From assembly GCF_900105555.1 (NCBI RefSeq), contig NZ_FNTZ01000001.1:248001-312000 (forward strand): 64,000 nt of DNA, written 5' to 3'. This stretch comes from Pseudomonas coleopterorum (lineage in GTDB: Bacteria; Pseudomonadota; Gammaproteobacteria; Pseudomonadales; Pseudomonadaceae). A model generated the notes under the pieces. It was not told the DNA's origin. It saw only the letters and a program-made list of their open reading frames with translations, and made no database searches. Of the stretch, positions 23,600 through 39,570 are shown in pieces. Position 1 is the stretch's first letter, and every line of letters begins with the position of its first letter. The position numbers were made by a program, and so were the translations under genes.

Positions 23600-26050
23600 A
23601 TGTCTCAGGAACCGCTTGTCCGTGACGCCGAGGTGGCCGATTTTCGCGCTGCTGTACTCGCCAAACTCACCTACGCGGTGGGCAAGGACCCCGATCACGC
23701 ATTCGACCATGACTGGTTCGAGGCCATCGCCCTCGCAGCGCGCGACCACATGGTCGAGCACTGGATGGATCACACCCGGCAGATCTACCGCAAAGGTCAG
23801 AAACGGGTCTATTACCTCTCCCTGGAATTTCTCATTGGTCGGCTGCTCTACGACAGCCTGAGCAACCTCGGCCTGCTGGACATCGCACGTGAAGCATTGA
23901 CCGACTTGGGCGTGGATCTGGAGCGCATTCGCCTGCTCGAACCCGATGCGGCGCTGGGCAACGGCGGCCTCGGACGCCTGGCGGCCTGCTTCATGGAAAG
24001 CATGTCGACCCTGGGCGTCGCCGCCCACGGCTATGGCATCCGCTACGAACACGGTCTGTTCCGCCAGGCCATCGTCGATGGCTGGCAGCAGGAACAGACC
24101 GAAAACTGGCTCAATTTCGGCAACCCCTGGGAGTTCGAGCGTCCCGAGGTGATCTACCCGATCAGCTTCGGCGGCCATGTGGAAACCGTCACCGACAGCG
24201 AAGGCCAGCAAAAGCAGGTCTGGTGGCCCAGCGAGACCGTACGCGCGATCGCCTACGACACCCCAGTGGTCGGTTGGCGTGGTTCCAGCGTCAATACCCT
24301 GCGCCTGTGGCGCGCGCGGGCGATGGAAGACCTGCACCTGGAGCGCTTCAATGCGGGCGACCACCTCGGCGCCGTGGCCGAAGTGGCCCGTGCCGAGAGC
24401 ATCTCGCGGGTGCTGTACCCGGCCGATAGCACCGAAGCCGGCCAGGAGTTGCGTCTGCGCCAGGAGTACTTCTTCGTTGCAGCCTCCCTCCACGACTTGT
24501 TGCGTCGTCACCTGAACGGCAACGACAGCCTGCTCAACCTGGCCGACAAGGCTGCGATCCAGCTCAACGACACTCACCCGTCCATCGCCGTGGCGGAATT
24601 GATGCGCCAGTTGGTGGACGAACATGGTCTGGCGTGGGAAACCGCGTGGGAAATCACCGTCAACACCCTGGCCTACACCAACCACACGCTGTTGCCCGAG
24701 GCACTGGAAACCTGGCCGGTGGGCCTGATGGAGCGCGTACTGCCGCGCCACATGCAGATCATCTACCTGATCAACGCCTATCACATCGACTCGCTGCGCG
24801 CCAAAGGCCAGCACGATGTCGATGTCTTGCGCGCGGTCTCGCTGATCGAGGAAGACAACGGTCGCCGCGTGCGTATGGGCAACCTGGCGTTCCTCGGTTC
24901 GCACAGCGTCAACGGGGTGTCCGGCCTGCATACCCAGCTGATGCGCAGCACGGTGTTTTCCGAGCTGCACAAGCTCTATCCCGATCGGATCAACAACAAG
25001 ACCAACGGCATCACCTTCCGCCGCTGGCTGTATCAGTCCAACAGCGAGCTGACCGCGATGCTGGTCGACAAGCTTGGCCCGGAACTGCTCGACAATCCGG
25101 AAGGGCTGCTCAAGAACCTCGAGCCGTATGCCGAGCAACCCGAGTTCCGCAAGGCCTTCGCGGCGCAGCGACTGAACAGCAAGAAAGCGCTGGCTCGCAT
25201 CATTCATGAGCGCGTCGGCGTGACGGTCAATCCGGAGGCGATGTTCGACGTTCAGGTCAAGCGTATCCACGAGTACAAGCGTCAGTTGCTCAACCTGATG
25301 CACACCGTGGCGCTCTATCAGGCGATTCGCGCCGAGCCGGAAACCGCCTGGGTACCCCGGGTGAAGATCTTCGCCGGCAAGGCGGCGGCCAGTTATCACC
25401 AGGCCAAGCTGATCATCAAGCTGGCCAACGACATCGCTCGGGTGGTGAACAACGATCCGACCGTACGCGGTCTGCTCAAGGTGGTGTTCCTGCCCAACTA
25501 CAACGTCAGCCTGGCCGAAAGCATCATTCCGGCGGCCGACCTGTCCGAGCAGATTTCCACGGCCGGCTACGAAGCGTCGGGCACCAGCAACATGAAGTTC
25601 GGCCTCAATGGCGCGTTGACCATCGGTACGCTGGACGGCGCCAACGTGGAAATGTGCGACTTCCTGGGCAAGGAGAACATGTTCATCTTCGGCATGACTG
25701 CTGCCCAAGTCGAAGAGCGCAAACATGCCGGGGGCTTCAGCGCCCATGGTGATGTCGCTGCTTCTCATCGTTTGAACGACGTTCTGCAGGCCATTCGTGG
25801 CGGTGTGTTTTCGTCCGACGATCCATCGCGCTACGCCGGTCTGGTCGACTCGTTGACCAGCTATGACCGCTTCCTGCTGTGTGCCGATTTCGATGCGTAC
25901 TGGGATGCGCAGCGCAAAGTCGAGGAGACCTGGCACGACGCCGACAAGTGGTGGCGCATGGCCGTGCTCAATACGGCGCGCATGGGGTGGTTCTCGTCCG
26001 ACCGGACCATTCGCGAGTATGCGCAGGACATCTGGCAGGCGCTGGAGTAA
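23600..26050 (+). CDS. glgP: glycogen/maltodextrin phosphorylase
   Basis: An 816-residue pyridoxal-phosphate enzyme releasing glucose-1-phosphate from alpha-1,4-glucans. Seen: YYLSLEFLIGRLL, LGNGGLGRLAACFMES, QLNDTHPSIAVAELMR, RIHEYKRQLLN and the cofactor lysine Lys666 in GTSNMKFGLNG. Length is normal. No other glycogen genes are next to it; fbp follows after the REP array, a pairing that fits carbohydrate storage and gluconeogenic carbon flow but not necessarily one operon. Confidence 0.96.
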   Translation: MSQEPLVRDAEVADFRAAVLAKLTYAVGKDPDHAFDHDWFEAIALAARDHMVEHWMDHTRQIYRKGQKRVYYLSLEFLIGRLLYDSLSNLGLLDIAREALTDLGVDLERIRLLEPDAALGNGGLGRLAACFMESMSTLGVAAHGYGIRYEHGLFRQAIVDGWQQEQTENWLNFGNPWEFERPEVIYPISFGGHVETVTDSEGQQKQVWWPSETVRAIAYDTPVVGWRGSSVNTLRLWRARAMEDLHLERFNAGDHLGAVAEVARAESISRVLYPADSTEAGQELRLRQEYFFVAASLHDLLRRHLNGNDSLLNLADKAAIQLNDTHPSIAVAELMRQLVDEHGLAWETAWEITVNTLAYTNHTLLPEALETWPVGLMERVLPRHMQIIYLINAYHIDSLRAKGQHDVDVLRAVSLIEEDNGRRVRMGNLAFLGSHSVNGVSGLHTQLMRSTVFSELHKLYPDRINNKTNGITFRRWLYQSNSELTAMLVDKLGPELLDNPEGLLKNLEPYAEQPEFRKAFAAQRLNSKKALARIIHERVGVTVNPEAMFDVQVKRIHEYKRQLLNLMHTVALYQAIRAEPETAWVPRVKIFAGKAAASYHQAKLIIKLANDIARVVNNDPTVRGLLKVVFLPNYNVSLAESIIPAADLSEQISTAGYEASGTSNMKFGLNGALTIGTLDGANVEMCDFLGKENMFIFGMTAAQVEERKHAGGFSAHGDVAASHRLNDVLQAIRGGVFSSDDPSRYAGLVDSLTSYDRFLLCADFDAYWDAQRKVEETWHDADKWWRMAVLNTARMGWFSSDRTIREYAQDIWQALE

Positions 26051-26070
26051 GGCCTGGAACCGCGGTGTGC

Positions 26071-26381
26071 CCTTCGCGGGCAGAGCCCGCTCCCACACGT
26101 GCCGACTGTGGGAGCGGGCTCTGCCCGCGAAGGACGTGCGGCGGCGCACTTGATACATCCTGCTCCCACACCTGCCAACTGTGGGAGCGGGCTCTGCCCG
26201 CGAAGGGCATGCGGCGGTGCACCTGATACACCTCGCTCCCACACGTGCCAATTGTGGGAGCGGGCTCTGCCCGCGAAGGACGCGCGGTGCTACCCCTGAT
26301 ACACCCTGCTCCCACATGTGCCAACTGTGGGAGCGGGCTCTGCCCGCGAAGGGCATGCGGCGGTGCACCTGATACACCCCC
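26071..26381. repeat. tandem REP array with exact 73-bp period
   Basis: After an inverted REP at 26071-26098, four forward copies start (TGTGGGAGCGGGCTCTGC) at 26107, 26180, 26253 and 26326, each exactly 73 bases apart. Each unit also repeats the linker (GCGGCGGTGCACCTGATACA-like) and a GCTCCCACA half that pairs with the next TGTGGGAGC across about 9 bases. The last ~130 bases before fbp are unique. Confidence 0.9.
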
Positions 26382-26510
26382 TTACCGAACTATCTCCATT
26401 GATAGCCATCTGATAGCTGCCGCGGCGTGGCTAGCGCTCGCTAGGTTTGACCGCACCCGTGTAAACTGTGCGGGCTTTCCCCAACCCCCTTTTCTACTCC
26501 GGAGTCGTCC

Positions 26511-27521
26511 ATGTCCCGCGTTACCCTGAGTCGCTACTTGATCGAGCAGACCCGTAGCAACAACACGCCGGCCGATCTGCGCTTCCTGATCGAAGTGGTG
26601 GCGCGCGCGTGCAAAGAGATCAGCCATGCGGTGTCAAAGGGCGCCCTGGGTGGCGTGCTTGGCAGCATGGGCACCGAAAACGTCCAAGGCGAAGTGCAGA
26701 AGAAGCTGGACGTGCTGTCCAACGACATCCTGCTCGAAGCCAACGAATGGGGCGGTCACTTGGCCGGCATGGCGTCCGAAGAAATGGATAACGCCTACCA
26801 GATTCCTGGCCAGTACCCCAAAGGGGCGTACCTGCTGGTGTTCGACCCCTTGGACGGCTCCTCCAACATCGACGTCAACGTCTCGGTCGGCACCATCTTC
26901 TCGGTGCTGCGCTGCCCTACCGAGCACCTGAGCCAGAACGACAGCCTCAAGGAACAAGCCTTCCTGCAGCCTGGCACCCAGCAGGTCGCTGCCGGTTACG
27001 CCATCTACGGCCCGCAGACCATGCTGATCCTGACGCTGGGCAACGGCGTGAAGGGTTTCACCCTGGACCGCGAGATGGGCAGCTTCGTGCTGACCCACGA
27101 AAACATTCAGATCCCGGAAACCACTGCCGAATTCGCCATCAACATGTCCAACAAGCGCCACTGGGAAGCCCCGGTGACCCAGTACGTGGACGAGTTGCTG
27201 GCCGGTCAAGAAGGCCCGCTGAAGAAAAACTACAACATGCGCTGGATCGCTTCGATGGTCGCCGATGTGCACCGTATCCTGACCCGCGGTGGCCTGTTCA
27301 TGTACCCACGCGACAGCCGCGAGCCGGAGAAGCCAGGCAAGCTGCGTTTGATGTACGAAGCCAACCCGATGTCGTTCCTGGTGGAGCAGGCCGGTGGCGC
27401 TTCGACCGACGGCCGCCAGCGCATCATGGACATCAAGCCCGAAGGCCTGCACCAGCGCGTCGCGGTGTTCCTGGGCTCCAAGCAGGAAGTCGAGCGTGTG
27501 ACCGGCTACCACACCAAGTAA
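26511..27521 (+). CDS. fbp: fructose-1,6-bisphosphatase, class 1
   Basis: A 336-residue gluconeogenic enzyme hydrolysing fructose-1,6-bisphosphate. Diagnostic class 1 blocks: the metal-binding [21 protein letters not shown] at about 105-125, [15 protein letters not shown], and [19 protein letters not shown] near the end. ATG 26511 follows a CTCCGGAGT block that serves as the ribosome-binding site. The gene is flanked by REP DNA on both sides. Essential for growth on organic acids in pseudomonads, which lack a full Embden-Meyerhof route. Confidence 0.96.
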
Positions 27522-27566
27522 AGGTCGCGCGGCTAGCACGCTCCGGCAGATTCCCGCCCCCCCTTT

Positions 27567-27655
27567 TGTGGGAGCGGGCTCTGCCCGCGAAGGCTTCACC
27601 TCGATCTGCCTGATATACCGCGCTGCTCTCTTCGCGGGCAGAGCCCGCTCCCACA
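27567..27655. repeat. REPIN (family B) after fbp
   Basis: A forward copy at 27567-27592 and an inverted copy at 27631-27655 (GCGGGCAGAGCCCGCTCCCA), facing each other across about 38 bases, between fbp and the lipocalin gene. Confidence 0.88.
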
Positions 27656-27763
27656 GGCCACAACCCCCAAGCCACAAGCCATGAGGGTCGCAATTGGAAC
27701 CCGCGCCGCTTGCGCTCTTCTAAGCAGCACACACCCTGTGTCTGCCGTTCAAGGAGAGCCCCC

Positions 27764-28333
27764 ATGTCGTTGCGCAAGTTCGCCTTGCTACCTTTGTGCC
27801 TGTCGCTGATGATCGCCGGCTGCAGCAACGCCCCCGACGCCAGCATGGCGCCACGCACCGTCGACAGCGTGGACCTGCAACGCTACCAGGGCACCTGGTA
27901 CGAAGTGGCCAGATTGCCCATGTTCTTCCAACGCAACTGCGCCCAGTCCGAAGCCCACTACACCTTGCAAACCGATGGCAATATCGGCGTGCTCAACCGT
28001 TGCCGTACCGAAAGTGGTGAATGGAGCGAAGCCAAGGGCACGGCGTCGCCACAGGTCCCGGGCAAGACCGACAAGCTGTGGGTAGTGTTCGATAACTGGT
28101 TCTCCCGGATGGCGCCAAGCCTGGCCAAAGGCGACTACTGGGTTTTGGACGTGGACGACAGCTACCAGCATGCGCTGGTCGGCAGTCCAAGCCGCAAGTA
28201 CCTGTGGCTGCTGTCACGTACTCCCCAGGTGTCCACCGCAGTGCGCGAGCGGATGTTGGCGAAGGCACGTCAGCAGGGCTATGACACCAGTCGCCTGATC
28301 TGGCGCGCGGCGGATGCCGACATCGGCAAATAA
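27764..28333 (+). CDS. blc: outer-membrane lipocalin (Blc type)
   Basis: A 189-residue lipoprotein. The lipobox is in LSLMIAGCS, with the lipidated cysteine about residue 22. The lipocalin fold is marked by the first conserved block YQGTWYEVARLPMFFQ, then YWVLDVDDSYQHALVG and KYLWLLSRTPQ. Blc-type lipocalins bind fatty acids or lysophospholipids and help maintain the envelope. ATG 27764 has AAGGAG 7 bases upstream; the longer reading would bury the signal peptide. Confidence 0.92.
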   Translation: MSLRKFALLPLCLSLMIAGCSNAPDASMAPRTVDSVDLQRYQGTWYEVARLPMFFQRNCAQSEAHYTLQTDGNIGVLNRCRTESGEWSEAKGTASPQVPGKTDKLWVVFDNWFSRMAPSLAKGDYWVLDVDDSYQHALVGSPSRKYLWLLSRTPQVSTAVRERMLAKARQQGYDTSRLIWRAADADIGK

Positions 28334-28358
28334 GGCCTGTCGCGACTTGCGCCCGGCA

Positions 28359-28398
28359 CGAGTGGCGTTACAGCCCAGGCGCGAGTCGCGTTACAATG
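28359..28398 (+). promoter_or_regulatory. direct repeat and -10 element upstream of hutC
   Basis: CGAGTGGCGTTACA (28359-28372) and CGAGTCGCGTTACA (28382-28395) match at 13 of 14 bases, 23 bases apart, about two helical turns. The second copy overlaps TACAAT (28393-28398), a good -10. This may be a regulator site over the promoter; it does not look like the known HutC operator. Confidence 0.35.
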
Positions 28399-28436
28399 TC
28401 GCTCGCTGTGCCCTACGAATCAATCAAGGAATTCCC

Positions 28437-29186
28437 GTGCCGACTCCGCCTGTTGTCCCTGCGCTGGCTGCCCAGATGGGCGAAAGTCCGGCGCCCTTGT
28501 ATGCCCGCGTCAAACAGATGATCGCGGTGCAGATCCTCAACGGCACCTGGCCACCGCACTACCGGGTGCCGTCGGAAAGCGAGCTGGTCAATCAGCTGGG
28601 CTTCAGCCGCATGACCATCAACCGTGCCCTGCGCGAGCTGACGGCCGAAGGCCTGCTGGTGCGCATGCAGGGCGTGGGTACGTTCGTGGCCGAGCCGAAG
28701 AGCCAGTCGGCGTTGTTCGAGGTGCACAACGTCGCCGACGAGATCGCCGCTCGCGGCCATCGTCACAGCAGCCGCCTGGTGCTGCTGGAGGAGGAGGCGG
28801 CCGGTGCCGAACGCGCCCTGACCCTGAACATGCGCGAAGGCCAGCGGGTGTTTCATTCGATCATCGTGCACTACGAAAACGACATCCCGGTGCAGATCGA
28901 GGACCGTTACGTCAACGCACAGATCGCCCCGCAGTACCTGCAGCAGGATTTCGTCGAAGAAACCCCCTATGCCTACCTGACTCGTGTGGCACCTTTGACT
29001 GCCGGCGAGCACGTGGTCGAAGCCATGCTGGCCAACCCCAGCGAGTGCGAGCTGCTGCAGATCGAGCGTGGCGAACCATGCCTGCTGATCCTGCGGCGTA
29101 CCTGGTCGGGCAAGACACCCGTCACCGCCGCGCGCCTGATCCACCCCGGATCGCGCCATCGCCTGGAAGGCCGCTTCACCAAATAG
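28437..29186 (+). CDS. hutC: histidine utilization repressor HutC (GntR family)
   Basis: A 249-residue GntR/UTRA regulator. The winged helix is at about 20-90 (VPSESELVNQLGFSRMTINRALRELTAEGLL), followed by a UTRA effector domain with the HutC-typical VFHSIIVHYENDIPVQIEDRYVN. HutC normally represses hut genes and is released by urocanate. The GTG start has AAGGA 6 bases upstream. No histidine-degradation gene lies nearby; the next genes encode an ABC transporter of the kind found in some hut clusters, so it may control histidine uptake here. No canonical TGTATATACA operator is visible. Confidence 0.85.
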   Translation: MPTPPVVPALAAQMGESPAPLYARVKQMIAVQILNGTWPPHYRVPSESELVNQLGFSRMTINRALRELTAEGLLVRMQGVGTFVAEPKSQSALFEVHNVADEIAARGHRHSSRLVLLEEEAAGAERALTLNMREGQRVFHSIIVHYENDIPVQIEDRYVNAQIAPQYLQQDFVEETPYAYLTRVAPLTAGEHVVEAMLANPSECELLQIERGEPCLLILRRTWSGKTPVTAARLIHPGSRHRLEGRFTK

Positions 29187-29299
29187 GCCTCCCCACAGCA
29201 CAAATATGCCAATCTGCCGTTCGTCGCGCAGAACAATGGCTCATCGTGCGGTCACACCCATAGATCGCCGTGACCATGGCCTATGTGGAGCAGGACCCG

Positions 29300-30268
29300 A
29301 TGAAACTGAACAAGACCCTCCTGGCAACGACCCTGTCCCTGGGCTTGCTGGCCGGTGCCACCAGCAGCCAAGCCGCTGGCTGGTGCGAATCGGGCAAGCC
29401 GGTGAAATTCGCCGGCCTGAACTGGGAGAGCGGCATGCTGCTCACCGACCTGCTGCAATTCGTTCTCGAACACGGCTATGACTGCAAGACCGACAGCCTG
29501 CCCGGCAACTCGATCACCATGGAGAGCGCCCTGGGCAGCAACGATATCCAGGTGTTCGCCGAGGAATGGGTCGGCCGCAGCGAAGTCTGGAACAAAGCCG
29601 AGCAGGCGGGCAAGGTGGTCGGGGTCGGCGCACCGATCACCGGCGCCGTGGAAGGCTGGTACGTGCCGCGCTACGTGATCGAAGGCGACGCCAAGCGCGG
29701 CCTCGACGCCAAGGCCCCCGACCTTGCCGCCATCGCCGACCTGGGCAAATACGCCAAGGTGTTCAGGGACCAGGAAGAGCCGAGCAAGGGCCGTTTCTAC
29801 AACTGCCCGGCCGGTTGGACCTGCGAGCTGGAAAACAGCGAAATGCTCAAGAGCTACGGTCTGCAGGACAGCTACACCAATTTCCGCCCCGGCACCGGGC
29901 CAGCCCTGGATGCGGCTGTGCTGTCGAGCTACAAGCGTGGCGAACCGATCCTGTTCTACTACTGGTCACCGACCCCGCTGCTGGGTCAGGTCGATGTGGT
30001 CAAGCTGGCGGAAAAGCCCGGTGTGGACAAGACCATCAGCATCAAGGTCGGCTTGTCGAAAGCCTTCCACGAAGGTGCGCCGGAATTGCTTCCCGTGTTC
30101 GAGAAGGTCAACCTGCCCATCGACCTGCTCAACCAGAACCTGGCGCGCATGAGCCGCGAGCGTATCGAGTCGCCCAAGCTGGCGCGCTTGTTCCTCAAGG
30201 AGCACCCGGAAGTCTGGAAGCCATGGGTCAGTGAAGCGGCAGCCAGCAAGATCGAAGCGGCGCTTTGA
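29300..30268 (+). CDS. OpuAC-family periplasmic binding protein of an ABC transporter
   Basis: A 322-residue exported binding protein (signal peptide LLATTLSLGLLAGATSSQA). The mature part has the glycine-betaine/proline-type fold: FAGLNWESGMLLTDLLQFVLE, VFAEEWVGRSEVWN, AVEGWYVPRYV and FYYWSPTPLLG, in which aromatic residues form the ligand cage. Two cysteine pairs (near the N-terminus and NCPAGWTCE) could form disulfides. GGAG about 10 bases upstream supports ATG 29300. The next two genes supply permease and ATPase. Substrate is either a quaternary amine or, given hutC, histidine. Confidence 0.88.
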   Translation: MKLNKTLLATTLSLGLLAGATSSQAAGWCESGKPVKFAGLNWESGMLLTDLLQFVLEHGYDCKTDSLPGNSITMESALGSNDIQVFAEEWVGRSEVWNKAEQAGKVVGVGAPITGAVEGWYVPRYVIEGDAKRGLDAKAPDLAAIADLGKYAKVFRDQEEPSKGRFYNCPAGWTCELENSEMLKSYGLQDSYTNFRPGTGPALDAAVLSSYKRGEPILFYYWSPTPLLGQVDVVKLAEKPGVDKTISIKVGLSKAFHEGAPELLPVFEKVNLPIDLLNQNLARMSRERIESPKLARLFLKEHPEVWKPWVSEAAASKIEAAL

Positions 30269-30313
30269 CCTTGCCTGCTGTTTTGACGAAGCCCCTTGCA
30301 CCGAGAGCGCTCA

Positions 30314-31165
30314 ATGTTTCCTGAGAGTTTCACCTTCTCCATCGCCGACTGGGTCAACGACGGCGTCGATGCGCTGGTCACCCGCTACGGCGATGTGTTC
30401 CGGCAGATTTCCGACACGCTGCTGTGGGCCATCGTCAATCTGGAAAGCCTGCTGCGCATGACGCCTTGGTGGCTGATGCTGGCCATCGTCGGCGGCATCG
30501 CCTGGCATGCCTCGCGCAAATGGCTGACCACCGTGGTCATCGTTGGCCTGCTGTTTCTGGTGGGAGCCGTGGGCTTGTGGGACAAGCTCATGCAGACCCT
30601 GGCCTTGATGCTCGTCGCCACGGTGATTTCCGTAGTAATCGCAATACCCCTGGGCATTCTTGCCGCGCGCAGCGACCGGCTGCGTGCGGTGTTGATGCCG
30701 CTGCTCGACATCATGCAGACCATGCCCAGCTTCGTGTACCTGATCCCGGTGCTGATGCTGTTCGGCCTGGGCAAGGTGCCTGCCATCTTCGCCACCGTCA
30801 TCTACGCGGCACCGCCGCTGATTCGCCTGACCGACCTGGGTATTCGCCAGGTGGACCGTGAGGTCATGGAAGCGATCAACGCCTTCGGCGCCAACCGCTG
30901 GCAGCAGCTGTTCGGCGTGCAACTGCCGCTGGCACTGCCCAGCATCATGGCCGGTATCAATCAGACCACGATGATGGCGCTGTCCATGGTGGTGATCGCC
31001 TCGATGATCGGCGCGCGCGGCCTGGGCGAAGACGTGCTGGTCGGCATTCAGACACTGAACGTGGGCAAGGGCCTGGAGGCAGGGCTGGCGATCGTCATTC
31101 TGGCGGTCGTGATCGACCGCATCACTCAGGCCTATGGTCGTCCCCGTCACGAGGTAGGCCGATGA
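30314..31165 (+). CDS. ABC transporter permease (OpuAB/ProW type)
   Basis: A 283-residue inner-membrane permease with about six or seven helices, including [31 protein letters not shown] and the BPD family block [31 protein letters not shown], which contains the EAA loop that contacts the ATPase. ATG 30314 is chosen over an upstream TTG. It overlaps the ATPase gene in ATGA, so the two are translationally coupled. Confidence 0.92.
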
Positions 31166-31983
31166 ACCCACCCAAGATCCAAGTGCGCAACGTCTACAAG
31201 GTATTCGGCAAGCGCGAGAAAGAGGCGCTGGCGCTGAGCCAGCAAGGGCAAAGCAAGGAGCAGGTGCTGGCCGCAACCGGTTGCGTGGTCGGCGTCGATG
31301 ACCTGTCGTTGTCGATCGCAGCGGGCGAGGTGTTCGTGATCATGGGCCTGTCCGGTTCGGGCAAGTCGACATTGGTGCGGCATTTCAACCGACTGGTTGA
31401 CCCTTCCAGTGGCCAGATTCTGGTGGATGGCGAAGATATCCTGCGCTATGGCATGCCAGCGCTGCGCGAATTTCGCCGTCGCAAGATCAGCATGGTGTTC
31501 CAGAGCTTCGGCCTGTTGCCGCACAAGAGCGTGCTCGACAACGTCGCCTATGGGCTCAAGGTTCGCGGCGAGAGCAAGGCGCTGTGTCAGGAGCGGGCGC
31601 AGCAGTGGGTCGAGGCGGTCGGTCTCAACGGCTACGAGCGTGCCTATCCCCAGCAGCTGTCCGGCGGCATGCGCCAGCGCGTGGGCCTGGCACGGGCACT
31701 GGCGGCGGACACCGACATCATCCTCATGGACGAAGCGTTCAGCGCTCTGGACCCGTTGATCCGCGCAGAAATGCAGGATCAGTTGCTGGAATTGCAGACC
31801 CGCCTGCACAAGACCATCGTGTTCATCACCCACGACCTGGACGAGGCGATTCGCCTGGGCAACCGGATCGCCATCCTCAAGGATGGCCGCTTGATCCAGG
31901 CTGGGACCGCCAGGGAAATTCTGCACAACCCGGCTGATGATTACGTCGACCGGTTCGTGCAGCGTCGCAGCGTTGCGGTTTGA
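31162..31983 (+). CDS. ABC transporter ATP-binding protein (OpuAA/ProV/HutV type)
   Basis: A 273-residue ATPase: Walker [11 protein letters not shown]-loop [13 protein letters not shown], signature [15 protein letters not shown], Walker [14 protein letters not shown] and switch His in TIVFITHDL. The extended N-terminus before the core ([18 protein letters not shown]) is typical of quaternary-amine and histidine importers. No C-terminal CBS domains are present, unlike osmotically gated ProV/OpuA, which favours nutrient uptake over osmoprotection. It closes the transporter unit; a long inverted repeat follows 58 bases later. Confidence 0.93.
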
Positions 31984-32040
31984 GGCAACCGGTGGTGGGG
32001 TCTGGAACGCGTCTGCCGACATCGCTGCCAGACATTTCTG

Positions 32041-32080
32041 TCGGAAGTTTCTGAAAAGTGCCTCTTTCAGAAACTTCCGA
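32041..32080. repeat. perfect 16-bp inverted repeat before the PheS-like gene
   Basis: Arms TCGGAAGTTTCTGAAA (32041-32056) and TTTCAGAAACTTCCGA (32065-32080) are exact complements with an 8-base loop AGTGCCTC. No T run follows on either strand, only TTGTTG on the plus strand. It is either an unusual terminator of the transporter unit or a regulatory hairpin or operator for the next gene. Confidence 0.85.
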
Positions 32081-32108
32081 TTGTTGTCCCGCAGTACCCT
32101 GCCTAGCG

Positions 32109-32143
32109 TGCAGGCATCCGTTCAGGAACAAGGAATGCCTGCA
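32109..32143 (+). promoter_or_regulatory. inverted repeat enclosing the ribosome-binding site of the PheS-like gene
   Basis: TGCAGGCAT (32109-32117) is the exact complement of ATGCCTGCA (32135-32143). The 17-base loop holds AGGAACAAGGA, the ribosome-binding site, and the right arm ends on the first base of the ATG. In RNA this could hide or expose the start site. Confidence 0.55.
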
Positions 32144-33288
32144 TGCCCGTCACCAAGCACTACCTCAGCCATGAAGCCATCCACAAGGCGTTGCGCATTG
32201 CCGACTTGACCGATGCCTGCGAACCGCCCCACGCGGTACGCCTGCTGGTCAGGGATCTGCTCGCGGGTCTGGTGCGCCAAGGCTGGCCCCTGGCCGAAGT
32301 GCACAAGGGACCGCGGATCATCTCCGCAGTGGAAAACTTTCAGCTGTGCGGTGACGATCCCCAAGTGATGGATGAAGTCAGCACTCACAGCTGTTGGGTC
32401 GATGATGAATTGCTGCTGCGGACCCAGACCAGCAGCGCGGTCATCACCGGCCTGCAGGCGGCGGCGGGGCGTCGCGCGCCGGGCGAAACCATCATGCTCG
32501 CCGCGCCCGGCATCACCTTCCGTCGCGACATCCGCGATCGCTGGCACTGCGCCGAACCGCACCAGATGGACATCTGGGTAGTGGGCGACGCCGCGCTGGG
32601 CAATCGTCAGGAGCTGCTGCGGCTGGTAGGCGACGTGCTGGACATCGCCGTGCCGGGACGCATGTGGGCGCACAGCTCGGGCGTCTGTGGTTTTACCCGC
32701 GATGGCCTCAATGTCAGCCTGGTCACCCGCCAGGCGCCGGTGGACATTCTGGCTTGCGGTTGCATCTGCCCGGCGTTCCTGCAACGCCTGGACGTCGATC
32801 CCCAGGCCCATGGCGGTCTGGTGCTGCGCCTGGGGCTGGATCGCCTGGCGATGCTGCGCAAGGGCGTTCCGGACATTCGTCTGCTGCGTGACGGCCATCC
32901 TCAGGTCCAGGCGCAGATGGGCGACCTCAAGGCCTGGCAACCGCTGTATCGCCAGCCTGCCATCAGCCGTGACCTGTCGCTGGCGGTGGAACCGGGATTG
33001 GGTATCGAGGACATCACGGAGCATGTCCTGCAGGTGGCCGGCTATCGCGCCGGCTGGATCGAAGAGCTGCACATACGGGGCTGCTGGTCGTTCGAGGAAT
33101 TGCCTTCCCCGACCATCAAGCGTCTGGGTATCGTGCGTGGACAGCACAACCTGGTGCTGCAGGTGGTGCTGCGCGACCATGCCCAGTCCTTGACCGCGCA
33201 ACAGGCCGATGACCTGTACCGGGACATCCGCGCTGCCCTTCACCAAGGCGTGCCCGGTGGCGCCTATCTGGTGGGGGAGCGCTTGTGA
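32143..33288 (+). CDS. single-chain PheS-like ligase with C-terminal FDX-ACB domain (unknown substrate)
   Basis: A 381-residue class II synthetase-like protein. LLRTQTSS (90-97) resembles the HTS block of PheS; HCAEPHQMDIW (135-145) matches the motif 2 region (HxxEFHQxEG in PheS); GLDRLAMLRKG (231-241) is motif 3. From residue 271 (QPAISRDLSL) to the end it is an FDX-ACB domain, normally the C-terminus of bacterial PheT. The N-terminal tRNA-binding coiled coil of PheS is missing. This order resembles one-chain mitochondrial PheRS, but as a bacterial paralogue it probably charges something other than tRNA-Phe. I recall similar proteins being annotated as PheS-related mystery ligase (SrmL); not verified. 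Confidence 0.8.
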   Translation: MPVTKHYLSHEAIHKALRIADLTDACEPPHAVRLLVRDLLAGLVRQGWPLAEVHKGPRIISAVENFQLCGDDPQVMDEVSTHSCWVDDELLLRTQTSSAVITGLQAAAGRRAPGETIMLAAPGITFRRDIRDRWHCAEPHQMDIWVVGDAALGNRQELLRLVGDVLDIAVPGRMWAHSSGVCGFTRDGLNVSLVTRQAPVDILACGCICPAFLQRLDVDPQAHGGLVLRLGLDRLAMLRKGVPDIRLLRDGHPQVQAQMGDLKAWQPLYRQPAISRDLSLAVEPGLGIEDITEHVLQVAGYRAGWIEELHIRGCWSFEELPSPTIKRLGIVRGQHNLVLQVVLRDHAQSLTAQQADDLYRDIRAALHQGVPGGAYLVGERL

Positions 33289-33378: not shown

Positions 33379-34350
33379 ATGCAAACCTTGTACCCGCAGA
33401 TCAAACCCTACGCCAGGCATGATCTGGCCGTGGAAGAGCCGCACGTGCTGTATGTCGACGAGAGCGGTTCGCCGCAGGGCTTGCCGGTGCTCTTCATCCA
33501 CGGCGGCCCGGGTTCGGGGTGCGACGCGCAGAGCCGTTGCTACTTCGATCCCAACGTCTATCGCATCGTCACCTTCGACCAGCGCGGCTGCGGCCGTTCC
33601 ACCCCCCATGCCAGCATCGAGAACAACACCACCTGGCGGCTGGTGGCAGACATGGAGCGCATTCGCGAACACCTGGGCATCGACAAGTGGGTCCTGTTCG
33701 GCGGCTCCTGGGGCTCGACCCTGGCGCTGGCCTATGCCCAGACGCACCCCGAGCGCGTGCATGGCCTGATCCTGCGCGGAATCTTCCTGTGCCGCCCGCA
33801 GGAAATCGAATGGTTCTACCAGTGCGGCGCCAGCCGCCTGTTCCCCGACTACTGGCAGGACTACGTCGCGCCGATTCCACCGGAAGAGCGCGGCAACCTG
33901 TTGCAGGCCTTCCACAAGCGCCTCACCGGCAACGACCAGATCGCCCAGATGCACGCTGCCAAGGCGTGGTCCACCTGGGAAGGCCGTACCGCGACCCTGC
34001 GACCCAACCCGTTGGTGGTCGACCGCTTCTCCGAGCCGCAACGTGCACTGTCGATTGCCCGCATCGAGACCCACTATTTCGTCAACAACGCTTTCCTGGA
34101 GCCGGATCAATTGATCCGCGACATGCCGCGTATCGCCCATTTGCCGGCGGTGATCGTGCATGGCCGCTATGACGTGATCTGTCCGCTGGACAACGCCTGG
34201 GCGCTGCATCAAGCCTGGCCCAACAGCGAACTGCAGGTGATTCGCGACGCCGGCCACGCCGCCTCCGAGCCGGGCATCACCGATGCGCTGGTGCGTGCCG
34301 CCGAACAGATGGCGCGCCGTTTGCTGGATTTGCCTCTGGAAGAGGCATGA
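33379..34350 (+). CDS. pip: proline iminopeptidase
   Basis: A 323-residue alpha/beta-hydrolase (S33 family) that removes N-terminal proline from peptides in the cytoplasm. Oxyanion-hole HGGPGSG (41-47), nucleophile Ser110 in GGSWGS, acid Asp265 in GRYDVICP and His293 in AGHAASEP form the catalytic set. GGAGCG lies just before the ATG. It overlaps dtd in ATGA, a linkage conserved in pseudomonads, so the two are probably cotranslated. Confidence 0.95.
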
Positions 34351-34784
34351 AGGGGCTGCTGCAGCGGGTCAGCCAGGCCCGTGTCGAGGTCGCCGGGCAG
34401 ACCATAGGCGCCATCGATCAGGGCTTGCTGGTACTGGTGGCCGTCGAACCGGACGACACGGCCGCCAGTGCCGACAAGCTGCTGCACAAACTGCTCAACT
34501 ATCGGGTGTTCAGCGATGAGCAGGGCAAGATGAATCTGTCGCTCAAGGACATCGGCGGCGGGTTGCTGCTGGTGTCGCAATTCACCCTGGCGGCGGACAC
34601 CCGCAGCGGTCTGCGCGCAGGCTTCTCCACCGCAGCGCCGCCGGCCTTGGCGCAGGCGCTTTTCGACCACCTGGTCGAGGCTGCAAAAAAAGCGCACGGG
34701 CAGGTTCAGGTGGGGCAATTCGGTGCCGATATGCAGGTAAGCTTGACCAACGATGGGCCTGTAACCTTCTTGTTACAAATTTAG
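34347..34784 (+). CDS. dtd: D-aminoacyl-tRNA deacylase
   Basis: A 145-residue cytoplasmic proofreading enzyme that hydrolyses D-amino acids from tRNA. The two active-site motifs are present: SQFTLAADT near residue 78 and the cis Gly-Pro motif NDGPVTFLL at the C-terminus. Full family length. Its start overlaps the pip stop. A 263-base gap to opgG follows; apart from a short AT-rich tract near 34825 (GCATAAATAC) it shows no clear feature. Confidence 0.96.
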
Positions 34785-36805: not shown

Positions 36806-39374
36806 TTCTCCAGCTCGGCCAGAATCGCTTGGCGAATACCTGGCTCAATTGCCCTTGGGGGACGCACAGCGCGCAGAACTTGCCGACTGCACGTCCTTCA
36901 CCGAACTGCACGAGCGCCTGTCCGGGCGCCCGGCGCACGATGCCGTGCTCGGCGCACAGAACTCGGTCGAACAGCGCCTGCGGCTGGATTCGGCTGCCGA
37001 ACTGGAAGAGGCCGAGATGTTCGGCGTCGACGCCAGCGGCCGCCTGCAGCTCAAGGCCACGCCACCGATCCACCGCACGCTGGTGGTTCCCGAGCCGTGG
37101 CGCACCAACGTCCTGGTTCGGGCATGGCGCAAGCTGACCGGCAAGGCCAGCAAGCCCGAGCCCACCAGCGACAAGCGCGAGCTGCCGAAAGCGCGCTGGC
37201 GCTGGGTCGGCTCGATGCGTCGCTACATCCTGCTGGTGCTGATGCTCGGCCAGACCATCGTCGCCGGTTGGTACATGAAAGGCATCATGCCGTACCAGGG
37301 CTGGGGCATGGTCGACCTCGACGAAGTGGTTCGTCAGCCAATCATGCAGACAGCCACCCAGGTCCTGCCGTACTTCCTGCAGACCAGCATCCTGATCCTC
37401 TTCGGTATCCTTTTCTGCTGGGTATCGGCGGGGTTCTGGACGGCGTTGATGGGCTTCCTCGAACTGCTCACCGGTCGCGACAAGTACCGTATTTCAGGTG
37501 CCAGCGCGGGCAATGAGCCGATCGAAGCCGGGGCGCGTACCGCGCTGGTGATGCCGATCTGCAACGAAGACGTGACGCGCGTCTTCGCCGGTCTGCGCGC
37601 CACGTTCGAATCGGTGAAGGCGACCGGCGATCTGGATCGCTTCGATTTCTTCGTGCTCAGCGACACCAATGACCCCGACATCGCCGTTGCCGAGCAACAG
37701 GCGTGGTTGCAGGTGTGCCGCGAAGCCGGTGGTTTCGGCCACATCTTCTATCGTCGCCGTCGTCGTCGGGTCAAGCGCAAGAGCGGCAACCTCGACGACT
37801 TCTGCCGTCGCTGGGGCAGCGAATACCGCTACATGGTCGTACTCGACGCGGACAGCGTGATGAGCGGCGAATGCCTGACCAGCCTGGTGCGCTTGATGGA
37901 AGCGACGCCGGACGCCGGCATCATCCAGACTGCGCCGAAGGCGTCGGGCATGGACACTCTGTATGCACGCATGCAGCAGTTCGCCACGCGCGTGTACGGT
38001 CCGCTGTTCACGGCCGGTCTGCACTTCTGGCAGTTGGGCGAATCGCACTACTGGGGCCACAACGCGATCATTCGCATGAAGCCCTTCATCGAGCACTGCG
38101 CCCTGGCGCCGCTGCCGGGCAAGGGTGCGTTCGCCGGTGCGATCCTCTCTCATGACTTCGTCGAGGCGGCCCTGATGCGCCGTGCCGGCTGGGGCGTGTG
38201 GATTGCCTACGACCTGCCAGGCAGCTACGAAGAGTTGCCGCCCAACCTGCTCGACGAGCTCAAGCGCGATCGCCGCTGGTGCCACGGCAACCTGATGAAC
38301 TTCCGCCTGTTCCTGGTCAAGGGCATGCACCCGGTTCACCGGGCGGTGTTCCTGACCGGCGTGATGTCGTACCTGTCGGCACCGTTGTGGTTCTTCTTCC
38401 TGGTGTTGTCCACGGCCCTGCTGGCGGTGAACACGCTGATGGAGCCGACCTACTTCCTGGCGCCACGACAGCTGTACCCATTGTGGCCGCAATGGCACCC
38501 CGACAAGGCGGTGGCGCTGTTCTCCACCACCATCGTGCTGCTGTTCCTGCCCAAGCTGCTGAGCATCATCCTGATCTGGGCCAAGGGTGCGAAGGAATAC
38601 GGCGGTCGCTTCAAGGTCACCCTGTCGATGCTGCTGGAGATGCTGTTCTCCATGCTGCTGGCGCCGGTGCGCATGCTGTTCCACACCCGTTTCGTGCTGG
38701 CCGCGTTCCTGGGCTGGGCGGCTACCTGGAACTCGCCGCAACGCGACGACGACTCCACTCCATGGAGCGAAGCGATCAAGCGTCACGGCTCGCAAACCCT
38801 GCTGGGTGCGGCCTGGGCTGCCTTGGTGATCTGGTTGAACCCCAGCTTCCTGTGGTGGCTGACGCCGATCGTGGGTTCGCTGATGCTGTCGATTCCGGTA
38901 TCGGTGATTTCCAGCCGGACCAATCTGGGTGTGCAGGCTCGAGAGGAGAAGCTGTTCCTGATCCCCGAGGAGTACGATACGCCGCAAGAACTGGTTTCCA
39001 CCGATCGCTACACCCAGGAAAACCGCGACAACGCGCTCAAGGATGGTTTCGTACGTGCGGTTGTCGATCCGCGCCAGAACGCCCTGGCCTATGGTTTGGG
39101 TACGGCACGACACGGCAAGGCCGCACCGATCGAGAGCATGCGTGCGCAGTGGGTCCATCAGGCTTTGCAAGGTGGTCCGCAGAAGCTCGATAACAACACG
39201 CGCATGTCGCTGCTCAGCGATCCGGTGGCGATCTCGCGTCTGCATGAGCATGTCTGGGCCGATCAGAACACGGCCTGGCTGGATGCCTGGCGTCAGTCAA
39301 AGCAGGCGGAACGGCAGTCGCCGACTGTGCCAACGCTGGACACCGCTCCGGCGGCAGGCTTGCAGAACGCCTGA
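36798..39374 (+). CDS. opgH: glucans biosynthesis glucosyltransferase H
   Basis: An 858-residue inner-membrane GT2 enzyme that polymerises UDP-glucose into beta-glucan. Several membrane helices flank the catalytic domain ([18 protein letters not shown] near residue 145; later [16 protein letters not shown]). Catalytic motifs: [25 protein letters not shown] (DxD), [14 protein letters not shown] and the acceptor-site [12 protein letters not shown] (a [QR]xxRW motif). The start overlaps opgG. A long REP hairpin 9 bases after the stop may act as terminator. Confidence 0.95.
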
Positions 39375-39383
39375 CCGTGTCGA

Positions 39384-39460
39384 CCTCATTCGCGGGCAGA
39401 GCCCGCTCCCACAGAAGTGCTTTTGCTACTTGTGGGAGCGGGCTCTGCCCGCGAATGAGG
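39384..39460. repeat. REP hairpin with perfect 30-bp arms after opgH
   Basis: Arms 39384-39413 and 39431-39460 are exact complements; the left arm starts CCTCATTCGCGGGCAGAGCC. The 17-base loop itself contains AAGT/ACTT. It is a family B REP doublet without spacer variation. Confidence 0.92.
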
Positions 39461-39523
39461 CACCTCGATATTCCTGCCATGCCCCTCACCAGTGCCATCC
39501 GGCACTAATTTCAGTACCAAACT

Positions 39524-39570
39524 TTGTCCAGCCCCCCGTTTGAGTTAGGATCGCACCCCGAAATGGTGCG
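39524..39570 (+). promoter_or_regulatory. candidate promoter and operator of the amino-acid ABC transporter
   Basis: TTGTCC (39524-39529), 16-base spacer, TAGGAT (39546-39551). Immediately downstream, CGCACC-N7-GGTGCG at 39552-39570 is an inverted repeat that would lie over the transcription start, a position typical of a repressor site. No regulator gene is adjacent. Confidence 0.4.

Follow-up and report, generated by a model that had tools for sequence, protein, structure and literature searches.

The NCBIfam family NF051887, 'PheS-related mystery ligase SrmL', already has a name, so that its members are known as genes, and a literature search, with most subscription papers outside its reach, found no paper that treats SrmL as a protein. 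Here we describe a divergent member of this family, the gene srmL in a 64,000 nt stretch of Pseudomonas coleopterorum DNA (contig NZ_FNTZ01000001.1, positions 248,001 to 312,000; this whole stretch is called the window), together with its counterparts in other genomes. In length and in the order of its two parts, a class II core followed by an FDX-ACB domain, the window protein is like the other members of NF051887; it differs from them in five family-invariant pocket residues, which are altered in the window lineage.

Several other described systems are close to SrmL in one respect or another. One-chain phenylalanyl-tRNA synthetases (PheRS) are represented by human FARS2 (3cmq) and by proteins from bacteria of the candidate phyla radiation (CPR). 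The pocket segment of the CPR proteins is [FY]PYT in seven of seven rows, in contrast to HxYT in SrmL and CGFT in the window protein, and the SrmL hosts that were checked retain a full PheT. Synthetase-derived proteins can also act away from tRNA, as EpmA does by direct transfer onto EF-P. SrmL shares with PoxA/EpmA, HisZ and the resistance forms of SerRS, IleRS and TrpRS a derivation from synthetases and a job outside or beside charging; in the part of PMC9437257 available to us, none of the stand-alone paralogues is derived from PheRS, and PheRS, phenylalanyl and PheS go unmentioned. Peptide aminoacyl-tRNA ligases (PEARLs) use aminoacyl-tRNA from ordinary synthetases and activate the C terminus of the peptide, according to the available part of PMC11962472. 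SrmL, as proposed below, would likewise attach an amino acid to a ribosomally made peptide away from the ribosome, and differs from PEARLs in being synthetase-like itself. Finally, the crocagin system (CgnA, CgnB and CgnE), which produces a ribosomally synthesized and post-translationally modified peptide (RiPP), resembles the loci of relatives only, where a CgnB/CgnE-like protein is encoded beside a short peptide with conserved Trp. These cassettes contain srmL in the stead of a recognised CgnC-like oxygenase, the C terminus of their peptide is unlike Ile-Tyr-Trp, and the window has none of these parts.

Identity and substrate pocket of the window protein

The gene and the relevant parts of its product are located as follows.

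32143..33288, + strand: srmL, divergent SrmL family member, a 381-amino-acid PheRS-like ligase (profile scores, structure model, fold, tree)
32398..32904, + strand: class II core match, residues 86-254 (Pfam PF01409)
32521..32529, + strand: motif 2, R127, R128 and D129, present in the window protein, its two closest relatives and all 58 of the 58 other SrmL proteins
32554..32577, + strand: EPHQMDIW, residues 138-145, kept SrmL signature replacing MFHQxEGL of PheS (alignment)
32686..32697, + strand: CGFT, residues 182-185, rewritten pocket segment; HxYT in the family, FPFT in PheS (alignment)
32752..32754, + strand: A204, where the family-invariant Glu (ECG) is expected (alignment)
32821..32829, + strand: V227-L228-R229, replacing the family-invariant A-x-G ahead of the motif 3 GLDRL (alignment)
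32840..32848 (approximate bounds), + strand: motif 3 D-R-L, residues 233-235, with the arginine R234 kept (alignment)
32953..33246, + strand: FDX-ACB match, residues 271-368, under the Pfam cut-off but visible in the structure model (Pfam and model)

The gene is real and its reading frame was called correctly. An initial annotation, made from the sequence alone, had described a PheS core fused to an FDX-ACB domain, and the 381-amino-acid protein indeed has this architecture, which is that of TIGR00469 (core and FDX-ACB in a single chain). The annotation had left the protein without a family name; it scores 371 bits with NF051887 (curated cut-off 300) and is therefore a divergent SrmL. The top fold match of the modelled protein is mitochondrial PheRS (human FARS2, 3cmq), and ordinary PheS and PheT, which had been expected, are encoded elsewhere in the genome. 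Architecture and fold would both suit a spare one-chain PheRS that charges tRNA-Phe in the manner of FARS2. However, the protein reaches only 46 bits with TIGR00469, the mitochondrial-type one-chain PheRS (cut-off 258), and 52 bits with TIGR00468, PheS (cut-off 237), a normal PheST is present, and where the pocket of PheS has a pair of Phe residues, all 58 of the 58 other SrmL proteins have His and Tyr and the window protein has Cys and Phe. An ordinary PheS or a spare PheRS was ruled out by these profile scores and pocket residues, and has hardly any chance of being the right explanation.

The pocket was compared in an alignment of 61 SrmL proteins, that is, the window protein, its relatives from loci L052 and L053, and 58 others (L106, cut by a contig end, and the partial L201 were excluded from these 58 rows). 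At the positions of E. coli PheS F248, F250, G271, A294 and G296, numbered by hand on the alignments, all 58 proteins have H, Y, E, A and G, whereas C, F, A, V and R stand there in the window protein and in those of L052 and L053. NF051887 is not defined by these five residues; their invariance is our reading of the conservation in the family. In PheRS, the side-chain pocket for Phe is lined by F248, F250 and A294. Because this pocket is not kept, a substrate other than Phe is likely. Unchanged in all 61 proteins are R127, R128 and D129 of motif 2, the residues H140, Q141, D143 and W145, and R234 of motif 3. Thus, the protein has the motif 2 and motif 3 arginines that mark class II synthetases (R127 and R234), and the ATP-binding residues of both motifs, whose loss would have spoken against an enzyme, are kept in the alignment.

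In a midpoint-rooted tree of 34 rows, SrmL forms one clade (support 100/99), apart from ordinary PheS and from the six CPR one-chain PheRS rows that were included. The window protein falls within the Pseudomonas part of this clade (100/100); the stem leading to its group measures 0.88, the tips 0.011-0.019. The plasmid and phage proteins branch beside Pseudomonas, on long branches that were flagged by the program. The CPR rows stem from a Falkowbacteria phylum sample, in which 18 of 286 genomes matched at E 1e-35. Two of these matches (G459 and G1109) are SrmL-like, and the remaining 16 genomes (region loci L176-L191) have a one-chain PheRS with FDX-ACB but lack a PheT that exceeds the cut-off; in nine of the 16, a short piece like the PheT N terminus (positions ~40-150) is found within ~1.2 kb. 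In these bacteria the one-chain protein seems to be the regular PheRS, and the earlier view of this form as exclusively mitochondrial does not hold. Seven of the 16 CPR rows were correctly framed, and their pockets are FPYT in six cases and YPYT in one; six of the rows were used in the tree.

The closest kin of the window gene are those of L052 and L053 only, with 95% and 94% identity and the same neighbours; L053 is from Pseudomonas baltica MBT-2. The ratios of nonsynonymous to synonymous substitution rates (dN/dS) in the three comparisons are 0.057, 0.055 and 0.080, and those of the neighbouring pip, dtd, ATPase and permease genes are 0.017-0.044 (ProX was omitted owing to alignment gaps). 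Values of 0.055-0.080 denote purifying selection, so the new pocket is being retained, and a decaying orphan gene is ruled out. The G+C content at third codon positions (GC3) of the window gene is 0.79, similar to that of its neighbours. Outside the window lineage, the median GC3 of 45 Pseudomonas srmL genes is 0.57, and that of 46 other genes at six of these loci is 0.77; the host-like GC3 of the window gene implies a long residence in the host. A burst of pocket changes, followed by constraint and with the ATP motifs spared, is what retargeting of an enzyme would look like.

The same record has to be read with a second possibility in mind, namely that the window protein, like HisZ, has become a pseudo-enzyme without catalysis that serves in binding or regulation. 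The change of five family-invariant positions, including Gly to Arg directly ahead of motif 3, the long stem of 0.88 and the loss of partner and peptide described below would all be in keeping with it, while the kept residues of motifs 2 and 3 and of the signature between them, the purifying selection across the entire gene and the host-like GC3 argue against it. We regard it as improbable.

A three-gene cassette in Pseudomonas relatives

A contig search with the window protein, which detects close relatives only, returned 55 loci: 48 from Pseudomonas, five from cyanobacteria and two from Falkowbacteria. Clustering of the neighbours over these loci revealed a single constant companion, a divergently oriented gene of ~315 codons, while the remaining neighbours vary. 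The companion in locus L087, from Pseudomonas anatoliensis P141, matches no family in Pfam or NCBIfam, and two of the CgnB-like proteins gave no family in Pfam. The L087 companion matches the solved structures 6zsv (E 1.7e-11) and CgnE, 6zsu (E 1.8e-5), both peptide-binding proteins of crocagin biosynthesis. According to the part of PMC10070186 available to us, CgnB has a two-zinc site formed by Glu161, Glu252, Glu274, His280, His291 and Asp293, which CgnE retains partly; all six residues are identical in the L087 protein (counted by hand, at the printed chain numbers minus 8).

Between the CgnB-like gene and srmL lies a small open reading frame (ORF), on the strand of the CgnB-like gene and with a purine-rich stretch ahead of it. 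Of the 48 Pseudomonas loci, 26 have a nearly full-length partner (tblastn pieces of three queries combined, covering 300 or more query positions), four have a partial one and in 18 none was found; the partial genes suggest repeated loss. The peptide is found in 26 of the 26 loci with a nearly full-length partner, in two of the four with a partial one and in none of the 18 without (28 of 48 altogether). As single ORFs, 23 of the 26 nearly full-length partners have at least 307 amino acids, that of L056 has 249, and those of L057 and L096 are split in two. For L079, just 1.2 kb of upstream sequence was available, and the peptide pattern was loosened after L076 to permit Gly in place of Trp.

Most of the peptides have 33 amino acids and follow the consensus ...NRITSGP[ED]NFGWAPLAWA..ED with the core FGWAPLAWA; those of L078 and L091 stop at the second Trp motif. 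An NCBIfam scan of five small peptides gave no family. For the Pseudomonas peptides the median dN/dS is 0.16, and all 216 pairs retained out of 378 have values below 1 (pairs were dropped if dS was outside 0.1-2 or if the calculation failed), which indicates that the peptide is translated and maintained. In addition, the 26 stretches between srmL and the partner have an element in common, around GGTTATTTgtGT...CTGTAG...TCTGAAA, which probably serves as promoter or operator.

Among 249 Pseudomonas genomes, 24 have srmL, 19 have the CgnB-like gene and 11 have both; in 11 of 11 cases the two genes are less than 2 kb apart (Fisher p 2.7e-8 for the co-occurrence, uncorrected for relatedness). Pseudomonas relatives contain a moving three-gene cassette, in which srmL is followed in divergent orientation by the small peptide gene and then by the CgnB/CgnE-like gene. 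As in RiPP cassettes, a conserved short precursor stands next to maturation genes. The main text of the crocagin paper (PMC10070186) mentions neither Pseudomonas nor a synthetase nor a ligase; the gammaproteobacterial CgnB homologues counted in the part of it available to us may include Pseudomonas ones. As far as can be seen, the cassette of peptide, CgnB-like protein and SrmL is undescribed, and so is the rewritten orphan.

In the window genome neither component of a RiPP cassette was found: there was no match to the CgnB-like partner at E 0.1, and the best match to the small peptide had an E value of 1.47, which is chance level. The window lineage has lost the partner and the peptide, has swapped five otherwise invariant pocket residues and has kept motifs 2 and 3. 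Among pseudomonad neighbours, the informative ones are confined to relatives, namely the gene of the small peptide and that of the CgnB-like protein.

Other contexts and the proposed function of SrmL

A second peptide context was found in both Falkowbacteria loci, in which genes for a peptide, a radical SAM/SPASM enzyme and an amidohydrolase follow in divergent orientation from srmL (Pfam on the L105 copies).

L105 9770-9883 and L099 2246-2362, - strand: 37/38-amino-acid peptide of Falkowbacteria, ahead of the radical SAM/SPASM gene; no NCBIfam family

The peptide, of 37 or 38 amino acids, is conserved with the pattern ...VQQEW.G......IVVRECSCLFD in these two related loci. The layout of short peptide, maturation-type enzyme and divergent srmL mirrors that of Pseudomonas, with an unrelated peptide and an unrelated enzyme. 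From the Pseudomonas cassette and the Falkowbacteria loci together it follows that srmL probably acts in, or protects against, a RiPP-like pathway. No precursor was called in the cyanobacterial loci, where the compared pairs were too similar to distinguish a small gene from noise, and none of the many small ORFs stands out in the CPR locus L192. In the latter, srmL adjoins genes for a class II D/K/N-type synthetase-like protein, an S66 carboxypeptidase, a carbamoyltransferase and a C-N hydrolase.

Altogether, the SrmL profile exceeds its cut-off in one of 398 genomes of a phylum sample (the window's own) and in five of 57 near relatives. A canonical SrmL query at E 1e-40 matched the 24 of 249 Pseudomonas genomes mentioned above (G464 being a fragment), and one of 292 genomes of a cyanobacterial phylum sample matched, namely the centre genome. 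Three srmL records were found in the plasmid search, one full match (besides two ordinary phage pheS) in phage records and two in IMG/VR. These sparse counts indicate that srmL is rare, patchy and mobile; within Pseudomonas it occupies differing genomic sites. An Rfam scan of L087, L091, L105, L199, L200 and L204 gave no match above the gathering score.

In the megaphage L202, srmL is part of a translation island (~0.6-11.5 kb) with 18 tRNAs and genes for SerRS, a Trp/Tyr-type synthetase and a HisRS-like protein, and it begins 9 bp past the HisRS-like gene. Besides the FDX-ACB part of SrmL itself, no PheT was found in the three phage records, two of which may be fragments, and no synthetase neighbour was recognised within ~4.5 kb in the phages L203 and L204. 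A tRNA scan of the flanks of 32 srmL loci gave nothing in 30, the 18 tRNAs of L202 and a tmRNA call only in L203, so that a tRNA beside srmL, as pylT beside pylS, is not the rule. SrmL could nevertheless be a true tRNA synthetase for an altered amino acid, the charged tRNA of which would serve the ribosome or, within the cassettes, act as donor for peptide modification. The L202 island without PheT fits this explanation, as do the FDX-ACB domain, kept family-wide with invariant C-terminal columns, the best fold match to a tRNA-charging mitochondrial PheRS and the position of the CPR one-chain PheRS as nearest outgroup. The tRNA-free flanks, the surroundings in L203 and L204 and the cassettes, in which no enzyme using aminoacyl-tRNA was recognised, do not, and we consider it unlikely.

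The plasmid copies have other neighbours. In the plasmid loci L199 and L201, srmL is stand-alone or partial: on the Glutamicibacter plasmid pGnB68, it adjoins the Cmx chloramphenicol efflux gene, with tet(33) ~8 kb off, and on a Corynebacterium diphtheriae plasmid a partial srmL match lies between erm(X) and tet(65). Such stand-alone copies near resistance genes would be expected if SrmL were a protective or self-immunity ligase against a toxic peptide or a translation inhibitor, inactivating it or replacing its target, which producers carry by the peptide and plasmids and phages carry alone. The 18 Pseudomonas loci with an orphan srmL agree with this explanation, and second synthetase copies are established as antibiotic resistance, according to the available part of PMC9437257. 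Upstream of the Azotobacter plasmid copy are a short ORF and a strong hairpin (z -3.8, 0 of 200 shuffles), with one terminator-like site on the + strand, but its listed annotation contains no resistance gene within 9 kb. An attenuator ahead of the Glutamicibacter srmL is unsupported, since no terminator-like site was found and its fold does not stand out from shuffled sequence (z -1.5; 17 of 200 shuffles did as well). Moreover, the Phe pocket is lost, so SrmL is not simply a drug-proof PheRS. A protective function thus appears quite unlikely.

The best overall explanation, to which we assign a probability of about 0.45, is that SrmL is an adenylate-forming ligase, that its acceptor in the cassettes is the small Trp peptide and that the window copy has been retargeted. 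SrmL would bind ATP and a carboxylate, form an adenylate in the manner of class II synthetases and then transfer the acyl moiety onto a nucleophile. For the cassette enzymes, the most likely acceptor or final recipient would be the small Trp-containing peptide held by the CgnB-like protein, with transfer either direct or via a tRNA bound by the FDX-ACB domain. The enzyme of the window lineage, for which a retargeted adenylate-forming ligase is the best reading, would have switched to another substrate by the A-to-V and G-to-R changes beside motif 3 and the loss of the His/Tyr/Glu set, and would have dispensed with its old partner.

Several observations weigh against the peptide-ligase explanation. 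The peptide is not the sole context of srmL, because 18 of the 48 Pseudomonas loci, the five cyanobacterial loci and the plasmid and phage copies lack the CgnB-like partner and any known peptide. The contexts of the plasmid copies and of L202 point to protection and tRNA charging, respectively, and for this reason the explanation is held tentatively. The kept FDX-ACB domain favours an RNA-related role. With regard to the window copy, a pseudo-enzyme that still binds ATP would give the identical pattern of substitutions, and the replacement of an invariant Gly by Arg could obstruct the pocket and leave the protein non-enzymatic.

A more far-reaching version is rather doubtful: SrmL would be a new class of peptide-modifying ligase that arose from one-chain PheRS, and would activate a non-Phe amino acid and add it to a Trp peptide held by the CgnB-like partner. 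Its mobile cassette of just three genes would be unlike the known RiPP classes, and the window ligase would represent a later stage, freed from the cassette and redirected towards a new substrate, possibly an acidic one. In any case, the 'mystery ligase' family of NCBI acquires a concrete context, a three-gene cassette, compact enough for expression in E. coli, that includes the likely substrate peptide. Should SrmL charge or modify this peptide, it would be a RiPP enzyme derived from a synthetase; should it charge a tRNA, it would have a new synthetase specificity; and should it protect, srmL would be a resistance gene of a new kind. How such an enzyme is retargeted may be studied in the window copy as a natural experiment.

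Surroundings of the window gene

The window srmL is flanked upstream by a HutC-ProX-permease-ProV-type block and downstream by pip, with the following features nearby; the upstream genes are listed as neighbours, not as members of a system.

28314..31983, + strand: genes for a HutC-type regulator and a ProX / permease / ProV-type importer, upstream neighbours (annotation)
32041..32080, no strand assigned: perfect inverted repeat with 16-bp arms in the gap between the importer ATPase gene and srmL (fold of 32000-32142, z -5.0, 0 of 200 shuffles equal)
33379..34784, + strand: pip and dtd, downstream neighbours common to the window and two of 48 Pseudomonas srmL loci (neighbour comparison)

The importer and pip/dtd had been taken to suggest an amino-acid theme. 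This clue is weak and was set aside, because the context is common to just two of the 48 Pseudomonas loci besides the window, with srmL located elsewhere in the rest. The inverted repeat is a candidate terminator or regulatory site. A different sequence, which by eye also looks self-complementary, is present at its position in L052 and L053. A single exact pattern of the conserved Pseudomonas intergenic element gave no match in the window.

CgnB-like genes without srmL are present in eight genomes, six of which have the gene between pip and hutG (L163-L168; the names were checked in L163 only), and no peptide was recognised near these genes at pip/hutG. The srmL site of the window and the CgnB-like genes at pip/hutG may be relics of one old cassette or two separate arrivals. 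Elsewhere in the window, the ORF translations at ~25860-26530, 27430-27680 and 39210-39540 contain recurring strings like SRAEPAPT and FAGRARSH on both strands, which is what repeated intergenic palindromic elements would yield.
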